Assembly (NCBI RefSeq): GCF_014268815.2
Contig: NZ_JABWRE020000001.1
Span: 1,431,001-1,495,000, forward strand
DNA from: Pseudomonas urmiensis
GTDB taxonomy: Bacteria; Pseudomonadota; Gammaproteobacteria; Pseudomonadales; Pseudomonadaceae
Length of the DNA stretch: 64,000 nucleotides
Reading direction: 5' to 3'
The notes under the pieces are model-generated. The model made no database searches and was not told the origin of the DNA. It worked only from the letters and a program-made list of their open reading frames with translations. The first letter of the stretch is position 1. Every line of letters starts with the position of its first letter. Positions 6,098 through 29,636 of this stretch are shown in pieces. The position numbers and the translations under genes are program-made.

Positions 6098-9000
6098 TCA
6101 GGGGCAGGCGTGGCTGTAGCGGCTCAGCACGTTCAGCAGGTCGTCCAGGCGTGGGTTGAGGAACACCAGGTGGGCCGGTACCTGGGTGCCCCACAGTTGT
6201 TGCACGCGGGCACACAGCAGCACGGCCTTGAGTGAGCTGCCGCCTACCTCGAAGAAGTGCGCCTGCTCATCCAGCGTCTGCAGTTCCAGCACCTCGCGCA
6301 CCAGCTGCGCCACTTGCTCCCGGGCCTCGGGCTGCTGCCCGGCGTGCGCCGCCGGCTGTGGCCGCAGGCGTTGCACCAGCGCTTCGAACGACGGCGCGGG
6401 TTGGCCGGGCAGGGCTTCGAGCAGGGCCTGCAGGTCCTCGCCAAGGGCCTCGATGCTGGCAGGTTCGAACAGGTCGGTGCTGTAGGTGAAGGTGGCGATC
6501 AGCCCTTGCTCACGCTCACTGACATCCAGCATCAGGTCGAACAGCGTGCTGCGCTTGCCGTGGTCTTCGCTCAGCGGCTCGATGCTCAGGTCGCCGAACG
6601 CCGACGAACGCAGGTTGCGCTCCTGGTGCAGGTCGAACATCACCTGGATCAGCGGCGCGCTGTGCTGCTGGGCGCCGGGCAGGGCCTGCAACAGTTGCTC
6701 GAACGGCAGGTCCTGGTTGGCGTGGGCGTGCAGCAGGTTGTCGCGCACCTGGTGCAAGACGCTGTCGAAACGCGGGTTGCCGGCCAGGTCGGTGCGCAGC
6801 GCCAGGGTGTTGACGAAGAAGCCGACCAGCCCCTCCAGCTCCTGGTGATGGCGGTTGGCGATGGGGATGCCGATGCGGATCGCCGATTGCTGGCTATGGC
6901 CTGCCAGCAGCACGTTGAATGCCGCCAGCAATGTCATGAACAGCGTGCAGCCCTGTTCGCGGCTGTAGGCGTGCAGGGCCTGGGCCAGTTGCGGGCCCAG
7001 CATCAGGCTGTGCTCGGCGCCACGATGGCTGGGCAGGGCCGGGCGCGGCAGCATGCATGGCAACTGCAGCAGGCTGCGGTCCTCACCCAGGTGGCCCAGC
7101 CAGAAGTCCAGCTGCGGCTTGAGCGCCGCCTGGCTCAGCTCACGGCGCTGCCATTGGGCGAAGTCGGCGTACTGCAACTGTGGCTCTGCCAGCGGCGAGT
7201 CCTGGCCGTGGCTGAAGGCGCTGTACAGGGCGATCAGTTCGCGGGTGAAGACCCGCATCGACCAGCCATCGAAGGCGATGTGGTGCAGGGTCAGCCACAG
7301 CACGTGTTCGTCGTCCGCCAGGCGCACCAGGCCGGCACGCAACAGCGGCCCGTGCTCCAGGTCGAAACGGTGCGCGGCCTGGGCCTGGAGTTCCTGGCCC
7401 AGGCGCGCGCTGCGCTGCGCCTCGGGTAGCCGGCCCAGGTCGATCAGGCCCAGGGCGAAGTCCTCGGCCGCTCGCACCCGCTGCACCGGCAGGTCACCGT
7501 CCAGGGCGAAGGTGGTGCGCAGGCTTTCGTGGCGCTGCAGCAGCACGCTGAAGCAGCGCTCCAGGGCCGGCAGGTCGAGGGCACCGCGCAGGCGTACGGC
7601 CTCGGGCACGTTGTAGGTGGTGCTGCCTGGGTGCAGGCGGTCGAACAACCACAGGCGCTCCTGGGCATAGGACAGTGGCACTGGCGCTTCGCGGCGCTGC
7701 GCACGGATCGGTGGAAGTGTCGACGCCTCGGCCCGGGGCAGGGCCTGTTCGACGAACGCGCCCAGGGTCGGGTGCTGGAACAGCGCTCGCACCGGCACTT
7801 CAAGGCCCAGGCTGCTGCGCAGGCGCGAAACCAGGCGGGTGGCGGTCAGCGAGTGGCCGCCGAGCTCGAAGAAGTTGTCGTCCAGGCCCACCTGTTCAAC
7901 GCCGAGTACCTCGGCCCACAGCGCCGCCAGCGTGGCTTCGCGCTCGGTAGCCGGTGCCCGGTAGCTGGCCCGGCGCTCACGCACCGGTGCCGGCAGGGCC
8001 TTGCGATCGAGCTTGCCGTTGGGGGTCAGGGGGAAGGCCGCCAGCATCACATAGGTTTTCGGCACCATGTGCTCCGGCATATGCAGGCCCAGGTGCGCCT
8101 GCAGCGCGGTGGCGCCCGGGCAGGCATCGCGGGCGACCACGTAGGCGACCAGCTCGTTGTCACCGGTGTCGTTGGCGCGTGCCACCACGGCGGCCTCGCG
8201 CACGCCTGGGTGGTTGAGCAGGCGCGCCTCGATCTCGCCCAGCTCGATGCGGAAACCGCGGATCTTCACCTGGTCGTCGATGCGGCCGAGGAACTCGATG
8301 TCGCCCTGGGCGTTGACCCGGCCCAGGTCACCGCTGCGGTAAAGCAGGCTGCCGGCCGGGTTCAGCGGGTTGTCCAGGAAGCGCTCGGCGGTGAGGTCGG
8401 GGCGGCCCAGGTAGCCTTGGGTGATGCCGGCGCCGCTGAGGTAGATTTCGCCGCTGACGCCGGCGGCCACCGGGCGCAGCTGGGCGTCGAGCACATACAT
8501 CTGCATGTTGGCGATCGCCTTGCCGATCGGCAGCACGCCCTGTTCGTCCCCCTGGGCGCGGTAGTAACTGCACCACACCGTGCCCTCGGTCGGCCCGTAC
8601 TCGTTGTACAGCTGCGCCTGGGCGCACTGTTGGCGGTGCTGGCGGGCCAGGCTGGCCGGGCAGGCTTCACCGGCGACGATGGCGCAGCGCAGGCTGCCCA
8701 GCTGGTCGGCGGCCTGTTCCAGCACCTGCCCGTACAGCGACGGCAGCATCAGGGTGTGGCTGATCCGCCGGGCGCCGATCAGTCGGCCCAGGGCCAGGGC
8801 GTCCTGCACCTGGTCGTCCTGGGGCAGGCACAGTTCGCCGCCTTGGGCCAGGGTCCAGAACAGCCCGGCCACCGAGCTGTCGAAGGCCAGCCCCGACACC
8901 AGCAGGAAGGCTTGCAGCGGCTCCTGGTAGGCGAGCAGGCGTGCGGCGGTGGAGTGCACGGCATTGCGGTGCGACACCATCACGCCCTTGGGCCGGCCGG

Positions 9001-28658: not shown

Positions 28659-29636
28659 TCACTCCTGAGCCGGTTCGGCCATGGCCACGATCACTTGCCG
28701 TGGCCCTTTGAAGCTGGCGCGGCCATGGGCCACCAGCATGTTGTCGAGCATCAGCACATCGCCTTGTTCCCAGGGGAAGCGCACGGTGCATTGCTCCAGT
28801 ACACCGCGGATTTCTGCCAGCGCGCTTTCCTCCAGCTCGCTGCCATCGCCGTAATACACATTGCGCGGCAGGTCGAGCGGGTCGTCGACCACGGCCAGCA
28901 GGCTTTCACGCACCGCTGGCGGCAGGTTGGAGACGTGGAACAGGTGGGCCTGGTTGAACCATACCCAGTCTTGCGTGACAGGGTGGCGAGCGGTGGCTTG
29001 GCACACCTGGCGGGTGCGCAGCTCGCCGTCGTCCTTCCATTCGAAGGCGATCTGGTTGGCCCGGCAGTAAGCCTCGGCGACGGCGCGGTCCTCGGTGTTG
29101 AAGGCCTGTTCCCAGGGCAGGTCGAGGCCATTGCCGTAGTTGCGCACGTACATCAGGCGCTTGTCGCTGAAACGTTGGCGCAGGGTGGGGTCGAGCTGCT
29201 GGTAGATCTGCCGGCTGTCGGCGATCGGTGTTTCGCCACCCTCTGCACTGGGCTGGACACAGTGGAACCAGATCTTCATCGGCCACTGCAAGGTATACGA
29301 CTGCTCGTTGTGCAGCGGGATGACCTGGTGCGCGGGGTATTCGGTGGAGGTGTACACCCCCTGCTCGATTGCCTTGCGCGGGGTGGAGCCGAATTCGTAG
29401 TTGAGCAACGGGTGGCCAAAGCTGCGTACCAGTGCCTGGAACGACTGTTCACCCAGCACATCGAAACCCCGCAGCAAGAGGGCGCCACTTTCATGTAGGC
29501 ACTCGTCGGCCAGTGCATGCAATGCCTCGATGCTCCATGCGCCGGGCTGCTCCGGCTTGACCAGCAGCGGCAGATTGCGGTTTGGCATGAGCGCTTGCAC
29601 CGACAGGCCATTGTTCTGTCCGACACCTCGTCCCAT
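28659..29636 (-). CDS. Stand-alone SyrP-like Fe(II)/2-oxoglutarate Asp beta-hydroxylase
   Basis: Protein of 325 residues, first gene of the NRPS operon. The ATG at 29636 has AAGGAGC upstream; a later Met (residue 17) lacks comparable support. The facial triad is visible as H109-x-E111 (LHNEQSY) and a distal H304 (LVAHGRASF), with Arg 313 positioned for the co-substrate. It is clearly related to the hydroxylase at 10788-11840 and to the fused domain of the next gene. Stand-alone Asp hydroxylases of siderophore clusters (TbetaH-Asp subtype) act on a carrier-bound Asp; the tandem T domains of the first Asp module in the adjacent gene are the likely site. The stereochemical outcome (erythro in the published scheme) is a family prediction only. 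Confidence 0.88.
   Translation of the reverse strand: MGRGVGQNNGLSVQALMPNRNLPLLVKPEQPGAWSIEALHALADECLHESGALLLRGFDVLGEQSFQALVRSFGHPLLNYEFGSTPRKAIEQGVYTSTEYPAHQVIPLHNEQSYTLQWPMKIWFHCVQPSAEGGETPIADSRQIYQQLDPTLRQRFSDKRLMYVRNYGNGLDLPWEQAFNTEDRAVAEAYCRANQIAFEWKDDGELRTRQVCQATARHPVTQDWVWFNQAHLFHVSNLPPAVRESLLAVVDDPLDLPRNVYYGDGSELEESALAEIRGVLEQCTVRFPWEQGDVLMLDNMLVAHGRASFKGPRQVIVAMAEPAQE

Follow-up and report, generated by a model that had tools for sequence, protein, structure and literature searches.

A probably iron-regulated NRPS locus for a predicted beta-hydroxyaspartate/beta-hydroxyhistidine lipopeptide siderophore within a ~184-kb integrative element of Pseudomonas urmiensis

What does an assembly line produce that carries the beta-hydroxylases of a corrugatin pathway in an order of its own, and can it move between genomes? 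These questions are raised by a nonribosomal peptide synthetase (NRPS) locus in Pseudomonas urmiensis (assembly GCF_014268815.2), located in a 64,000-nucleotide stretch of contig NZ_JABWRE020000001.1 (positions 1,431,001 to 1,495,000), which is hereafter called the window. An earlier reading of the letters, the original prediction, had described a corrugatin-type line with five adenylation (A) domains and the product acyl-(OH-Asp)-Dab-(OH-Asp)-X-(OH-His), where Dab is diaminobutyrate. Our analysis makes it quite probable that the locus is intact, probably iron-regulated and dedicated to a lipopeptide siderophore, that it belongs to a small family with hydroxylase chemistry close to corrugatin and its own assembly order, and that it rides on an integrative and conjugative element (ICE) of ~184 kb.

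Pfam searches and a local domain map place five A domains in the block 6098-29636, together with three beta-hydroxylases of the Fe(II)/2-oxoglutarate type: H1 and H2 stand alone, and H3 is fused. The four NRPS genes of the block (N2 to N5) all lie on the minus strand (Table 1). The placement of the hydroxylases agrees with the original prediction, and family matches were found for the MbtH-like protein, Dab aminotransferase, exporter and receptor that it had listed as adjacent. Its count of five A domains is correct within the block but incomplete for the cluster. Reading the 20 kb to the left of the window revealed a sixth A domain in a further NRPS protein, N1, which sits in the transport operon beside the exporter gene, and N2 ends in a condensation-thiolation (C-T) pair that has no A domain of its own (A-less). 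This sixth A domain, the interface (I) domains, the lack of a thioesterase (TE) in the cluster and the ICE transfer genes on both sides go beyond what had been predicted. The host genome of 5.79 Mb holds a second NRPS cluster, of the pyoverdine type, at 1.014-1.053 Mb.

Substrate codes were computed by alignment of the A domains. N5 carries DLTKVGHVGK (Asp) and DIWELTADDK (Dab), N4 carries DLTKIGHVGK (Asp), N3 carries DGDASGIVVK (residue X) and N2 carries DSALIAEVWK (His). The code of N1, DILQLGVVWK, is Gly-like and identical in all ten genomes compared, i.e. the host and nine fetched Pseudomonas relatives. The five codes of the block gave the same reading as had been made by eye (Asp, Dab, Asp, unassigned, His), with the pyoverdine-type cluster of the host as a control: its PvdL-like protein has DIWELTADDK in the last module, which in known PvdL presumably loads Dab, and the cluster also holds DLTKV/IGHVGK, DILQLGLIWK and DGEDHGTVTK. 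The P. corrugata locus has the same His code in its first module, and the P. thivervalensis locus has it in both end modules. According to the excerpt of PMC12283262, DSALIAEVWK is a published His code able to accept a beta-hydroxyl group and DLTKVGHVGK is an Asp/Asn code mostly favouring Asp; an excerpt of PMC3207962 gives DLTKIGHV as the code of the two P. syringae pyoverdine Asp modules at which beta-hydroxylation is assumed. The residues would thus be read in the order Asp-Dab-Asp-X-His with a separate Gly module, Gly and Dab being predictions.

All three hydroxylases belong to the TauD family (PF02668) and keep the H-x-E...H motif, in H3 as H115-x-E...H309 (H3 numbering). H1, H2 and H3 pair one-to-one with P. 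corrugata enzymes at 62, 57 and 61% identity, respectively, and the other classes reach ~47% or less. H2 has its best partners (57-58%) in stand-alone enzymes that belong to the P. corrugata and P. thivervalensis loci, and H3 is best matched by the fused P. corrugata hydroxylase. The gene order follows the same pairing: H1 and its P. corrugata partner both adjoin an I-A(His)-T protein, and H3 and its partner are both fused behind a C domain that is followed by an I-A(Asp)-T protein. An interface domain is a C-like domain without HHxxxDG in a hydroxylated module; this domain and the classes of siderophore beta-hydroxylases were reportedly named by Reitz et al. in 2019. Interface domains were found in N4 and N2, i.e. 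at two of the three predicted hydroxylation sites, and group in the tree with the I domains of corrugatin-type loci with a support of 0.997. A 468-aa piece after Asp6 in P. corrugata was rejected as a further interface domain, as it groups with epimerization (E) domains (support 0.988).

The domain map shows neither an interface nor an E domain in the Asp1 module of N5, which has tandem T domains; no description of "tandem thiolation" with OH-Asp was found among the papers listed in the literature searched. H2 would act on Asp1 by elimination, since H1 and H3 are placed elsewhere. The siderophore beta-hydroxylase classes are described in an excerpt of PMC12971057. In potashchelin, according to the excerpt of PMC7100376, the stand-alone enzyme is assigned L-erythro and the fused one L-threo OH-Asp, one introduction sentence stating the reverse; by analogy, erythro OH-Asp would be expected from the stand-alone and threo from the fused enzyme here. 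Together, the codes, the hydroxylase pairing and the domain layout support the proposed acyl-(OH-Asp)-Dab-(OH-Asp)-X-(OH-His) chemistry as a likely reading. The original prediction had also put forward the three separate hydroxylases. As a special trait of the locus these were rejected, because all three types are found in P. corrugata DSM 7228 as well.

No TE was detected by Pfam in the cluster, nor any PF00975 match anywhere inside the ICE. Host TEs are located outside the element, in the pyoverdine-type cluster at 1.053 Mb and as a TE-type protein with a 255-aa frame at 1.682 Mb, and either could act in trans. All ten copies keep the active-site Ser in their T domains, including the terminal T of N2 and that of N1 (GAQS). 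In the same ten genomes the C motif of N1 reads HHxxxDA and the first C of N5 reads HHISGDF; in the tree the N1 C domain is placed with C domains of the elongation type, at modest support. A-less C-T pairs were also found in two of 35 corrugatin-type and more distant loci, P. corrugata DSM 7228 and P. fluorescens ISL-33 (L032 and L045 of L018-L052, partially mapped with at most 10 kb on each side). There the pair forms the third module of the corrugatin-type line and the second of the protein that follows I-A(His)-T (NRPS start near 14.2 kb); the same position is C-A-T in 24 other loci, and the remaining nine have other layouts. Since corrugatin differs from ornicorrugatin by Dab in place of Orn (excerpt of PMC4528175), a Dab A domain may charge that T in trans in P. 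corrugata. The P. corrugata module offers a precedent for an A-less end in a related pathway.

Fur-box-like sites were found at both promoters of the locus, the divergent H2/MbtH promoter and, weaker, upstream of N1 (in L009, the sequence left of the window). The best match at each promoter was scored against shuffles. All ten genomes have sites at both promoters with 13-15 of 19 matches, and each score is reached by 0-19 of 300 shuffles, uncorrected for the 20 tests. An exact Fur consensus allowing up to three mismatches gave no match. The conserved boxes suggest that the locus is probably iron-regulated.

The cluster is a small recurring family and not a single oddity. H1 has matches of at least 86% identity in seven of 398 sampled genomes of the genus, host included, and in 51 more at 57-63%. 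In a class-wide draw of 369 genomes, again with the host, an H1 match at E≤1e-100 occurred in the host only. Among the 80 named loci retained out of 211 there were six Pseudomonas loci at 83-94% and one of Massilia frigida at 73%. An environmental P. brassicacearum subsp. neoaurantiaca strain is one carrier of the cluster. The gene set, MbtH included, is collinear in all nine fetched Pseudomonas relatives, the five NRPS proteins have the same domain layout there as in the host, and N1 stays beside the exporter gene (9/9). In eight of these relatives the six codes are each identical or one conservative residue apart. In the ninth, the metagenome-assembled genome Pseudomonas sp. C4 (G005), a Gly-like code replaces Dab and DGDDSTTVTK stands in place of the X code; more than one peptide is thus probably made within the family. 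The second C domain of N5 lacks the HHxxxD motif in G005, the sole C domain so affected.

Within ~12 kb of the flanks no corresponding genes are shared, except in the sister pair G154/G172, and other matches are 24-62% identical at unrelated offsets. The unit from N1 to the aminotransferase is thus sharply bounded, and the ten genomes show it in as many as nine different surroundings. On the same comparison, the idea of a conserved TE or regulator just outside the cluster was rejected. The cluster was also rejected as a PLSDB plasmid module: N4 matches in all 1996 records are below 60% identical, and the best listed has 45%.

The cluster lies inside a ~184-kb ICE integrated at tRNA-Pro, at a variable cargo junction. 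A 49-bp repeat of the tRNA-Pro(GGG) 3′ end occurs at contig positions 1,392,688 and 1,576,634, which are 183,946 bp apart, with a tyrosine integrase (466-aa frame) ~1 kb from the far copy and the relaxase TIGR03760 at 1,410,860. Integrase, att repeats, relaxase, coupling protein and VirB4-type ATPase are all present, which fits the TIGR037xx/PFL_47xx (ICEclc/PFGI-1-like) group. The junction from TIGR03747 to the next type IV secretion system (T4SS) gene spans 35.4 kb here and holds the whole siderophore cluster. In six other ICEs of this group, those found in 57 genomes, the same junction measures 0.15, 0.8, 1.0, 2.0, 3.2 and 7.5 kb, and the queried T4SS genes are collinear. The element looks transferable. 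Near the start of its right half lie genes for an asparaginase, a LysR regulator, an argininosuccinate lyase-like protein and a polysaccharide deacetylase, with no mobility function.

We propose the following course of synthesis. Iron limitation would release Fur from the two promoters, as the conserved boxes suggest. The first C domain of N5, starter-like by position, would acylate Asp1, which the stand-alone H2 may hydroxylate, and Dab2, supplied by the adjacent aminotransferase, would be added next. N4 would load Asp3, to be modified by the N5-fused hydroxylase at the N4 interface domain; N3 would add X, perhaps a basic residue; and N2 would load His5, with H1 acting at the N2 interface domain. 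Two beta-OH-Asp and one beta-OH-His residues could then provide a hexadentate Fe(III) site. The A-less T of N2 would most likely be charged in trans by N1 or the Dab A domain, N1 would add or supply Gly, and release would be left to an enzyme encoded elsewhere or to a C domain. The peptide would leave through the ABC exporter and be taken up by the TonB receptor together with the PepSY proteins. Transfer of the ICE would carry synthesis, export and uptake together.

Other explanations of the locus have to be weighed against this proposal. It might merely be a corrugatin or histicorrugatin variant making an already known compound. In favour of this, a 3431-aa P. corrugata protein is collinear (44% identity) with the C-A(Dab)-T-C-hydroxylase stretch of N5, and the third C domain of N5 groups with its P. 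corrugata counterpart with a support of 0.988; the hydroxylase pairing and the common Asp, Dab and His codes point the same way. However, the order in the corrugatin-type loci is (CoA-ligase-like A-C), I-A(His)-T, Dab, X, Ser, Ser, Asp, Dab, I-A(Asp or His)-T-TE, which gives the residues His-Dab-X-Ser-Ser-Asp-Dab and then Asp or His; in the host line it is Asp(T-T), Dab, I-Asp, X, I-His, C-T, with the separate Gly module in addition. The eight-module order, the CoA-ligase-like starter (called in those loci from a weak A-domain match) and the terminal TE are all absent here, and in the alignments listed the NRPS proteins are just 27-44% identical. A known compound is therefore very improbable. 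The label "corrugatin-type" of the original prediction holds for the hydroxylases and fails for the assembly line; its suspicion of a new variant is borne out in that the line differs from both eight-module loci, although the five A domains on which it was based were an incomplete count.

N1 could also stand apart from the peptide; the product would then be an acyl pentapeptide that leaves N2 directly, through the action of the terminal C-T or by hydrolysis. N1 is encoded in the transport operon on the opposite strand, and in Massilia frigida N2 reads I-A-T-C, with no A domain in the 9 kb fetched downstream, the rest of that genome being unchecked for N1. Against this stand the constant position of N1 beside the exporter, the retention of HHxxxDA, T Ser and code in ten of ten genomes, and the elongation-type grouping of its C domain, and we consider a role outside the peptide rather unlikely. 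The ICE, in turn, may be a decayed or composite island, in which case the cluster would in effect be a chromosomal one that cannot be transferred. A second TIGR03747, which shares 80% identity with the first, lies beside a reverse-transcriptase ORF (PF00078) at window positions 62373-63747, a sign of a composite element or of a second ICE remnant in the right half, where the G+C content is patchy (about 0.47-0.65 over 49664-145000 in window coordinates). At 184 kb the element exceeds ICEclc, given as 103 kb in the excerpt of PMC10732049. Among the ten copies, only that of the host is flanked by conjugation genes: in the nine relatives, in scans aimed at this ICE group, no transfer genes of the group lie near the cluster, and its TraC was above the cut-off in two only, ~0.28 Mb away in G019 and on another contig in G006. 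On the other hand, the element has its att repeats, the genes for integrase, relaxase, TraC and TraD and the remaining transfer genes scanned have open frames, and their order matches that of other ICEs. Decay is a possibility of some weight, though not what we expect.

Several observations weigh against our preferred reading of an intact siderophore locus carried by an ICE. The Fur-like site upstream of N1 in the host is the weakest of the ten, reached by 19 of 300 shuffles, and the H2/MbtH site of G006 is also weak (17 of 300). The Asp1 module lacks an interface domain, which leaves H2 placed by elimination only. The short N2 of Massilia makes the A-less T not universal. No matching code was found for DGDASGIVVK, literature look-up included, and the nearest, the Lys/Orn-like DGEDHGTVxK, differs at 4 or 5 positions. 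The right half of the element looks composite. In addition, the DNA identities of exporter, receptor and aminotransferase fall in the same tiers as those of ileS, with G002, G154 and G172 nearest and G005 farthest, which lends no support to a recent jump among the genomes sampled. G006, whose match is in two pieces, was excluded from the ileS comparison, and the NRPS values were left aside because module-to-module matches dilute them.

A bolder version can be put forward only tentatively. The element would be self-transmissible and bring synthesis, export and a private receptor for a new beta-OH-Asp/beta-OH-His lipopeptide, finished without a TE by charging the A-less terminal C-T in trans from the Gly (or Dab) module, and both the C-terminus of the product and its release chemistry would be new for this siderophore class. 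Siderophores are public goods, and with an element that moved the genes for synthesis, export and uptake as one, the spread of iron cooperation and cheating could be tested directly by mating. Each hydroxylase can be assigned to one of three modules, which yields testable rules for hydroxylase-module pairing. The TE-less C-T end and the separate Gly module pose a concrete question of chain release, for which the P. corrugata line gives an A-less precedent.

The remaining features are listed in Table 1. The nearest models to the receptor are FauA and FhuE, each below its own cut-off, and the small ORF 3907-4215 has no family match. Three minus-strand ORFs were rejected as genes, as none has a Pfam/NCBIfam match: 4242-5612 and 5609-5920, which run antisense to the PepSY genes, and 30072-31721, which runs antisense to the aminotransferase.

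Table 1. Features of the siderophore locus and of the surrounding element, in window positions; L009 refers to the sequence left of the window.
Feature	Position	Strand	Basis and remarks
N1 NRPS	L009:16461-19742	opposite to N2-N5	C-A-T, 1093 aa; code DILQLGVVWK (Gly-like)
Cyclic-peptide-type ABC exporter	1-1447, start at L009:19783	+	in-window part: TIGR01194 above cut-off
TonB-dependent siderophore receptor	1487-3742	+	TIGR01783 above cut-off; Pfam
Membrane-protein genes	3907-6066	+	small ORF 3907-4215; PepSY_TM 4215-5762; DUF3325 5755-6066
N2 NRPS	6098-10729	-	I-A(His)-T-C-T, 1543 aa; no TE at end; Pfam, domain map, code
A-less terminal C-T of N2	6125-7678	-	T active-site Ser GGSS or GGTS, 10/10 genomes
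Interface-type domain of N2	9500-10702	-	without HHxxxDG; domain map, motif, tree
H1, stand-alone beta-hydroxylase, His type	10788-11840	-	pairing with P. corrugata enzyme; adjoins I-A(His)-T module
N3 NRPS	11844-16610	-	C-A(X, code DGDASGIVVK)-T-C, 1588 aa; Pfam, domain map, code
N4 NRPS	16615-19719	-	I-A(Asp)-T, 1034 aa; Pfam, domain map, code
Interface-type domain of N4	18451-19692	-	C-like, without HHxxxDG; tree grouping
N5 NRPS	19716-28652	-	C(starter-like)-A(Asp)-T-T-C-A(Dab)-T-C-TauD, 2978 aa; Pfam, domain map, codes
H3, fused beta-hydroxylase domain at N5 C-terminus	19755-20759	-	Pfam, domain map, identity comparison
Tandem T domains of N5 Asp1 module	25404-25820	-	domain map; GGDSI in both T domains, 10/10 genomes
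H2, stand-alone beta-hydroxylase, Asp type	28659-29636	-	Pfam PF02668, identity comparison, motif
Fur-box-like site	29733-29751	+	14/19; divergent H2/MbtH promoter
MbtH-like protein	29837-30052	+	PF03621; found in 9/9 relatives
Diaminobutyrate-2-oxoglutarate aminotransferase	30057-31472	+	NF005393 and TIGR00709, both above cut-off
ICE transfer genes TIGR03747, TraD, PFL_4695, TIGR03759	31601-36200	-	right of cluster
ICE transfer genes TIGR03752, TIGR03755, TraC, TraG_N	left of cluster	-	family matches
radC RNA (RF01754)	39774-39910	-	68 bits; within ICE backbone
DNA topoisomerase III, STY4528-family replication protein, ParA-like protein (ICE genes)	40421-49334	-	family matches

Finally, we compared the locus with known systems. 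P. corrugata DSM 7228 (L032, G008) resembles the host in its set of beta-hydroxylases (two stand-alone, one fused), in its interface domains, in having codes for His, Dab and Asp, and in an A-less C-T, there in module 3. It differs in its eight modules, arranged in another order over two contigs, its CoA-ligase-like start, its terminal TE, its E-like domain after Asp6 and the lack of a Gly code in the stretches fetched. P. thivervalensis DSM 13194 (L033, G009), taken as histicorrugatin-type from its species and codes, shares the His code DSALIAEVWK and a His-type and an Asp-type stand-alone hydroxylase, but has no fused hydroxylase, His at both ends, eight modules and a TE. The acyl group of corrugatin-family products is octanoyl. 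Eight residues are given for the corrugatin-family siderophore of SBW25 in the excerpt of PMC4528175. We would not file the locus as a corrugatin cluster: its predicted chemistry is corrugatin-like, but module order, starter and TE do not fit.

Cupriachelin/potashchelin-type siderophores contain N-hydroxy-ornithine ligands. Their pathways also combine a stand-alone and a fused Asp beta-hydroxylase, each acting on a different Asp; potashchelin, however, is a nonapeptide that contains Ser, Gly, Thr and Orn in addition to OH-Asp and shows no His beta-hydroxylation, as far as the excerpt of PMC7100376 goes. In the open-licence literature searched, we found no characterised product of this cluster and, among the papers listed, no description of an ICE-borne NRPS/lipopeptide or hydroxyhistidine siderophore in Pseudomonas matching this case. 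Yersiniabactin on ICEKp is one ICE-borne siderophore locus. A further one is equibactin on ICESe2, likewise an NRPS siderophore system carried as conjugative-element cargo (excerpt of PMC3672683); the equibactin NRPS is streptococcal and yersiniabactin-like, whereas here a predicted beta-hydroxy-acid lipopeptide line is found on an ICEclc/PFGI-1-like element in Pseudomonas. The word "siderophore" was not found in the main text of a 2023 survey that covers ICEclc-like elements of P. aeruginosa (PMC10732049). With the three-hydroxylase set also present in P. corrugata, what appears to be new is a TE-less, reordered beta-OH-Asp/beta-OH-His lipopeptide line captured as ICE cargo.

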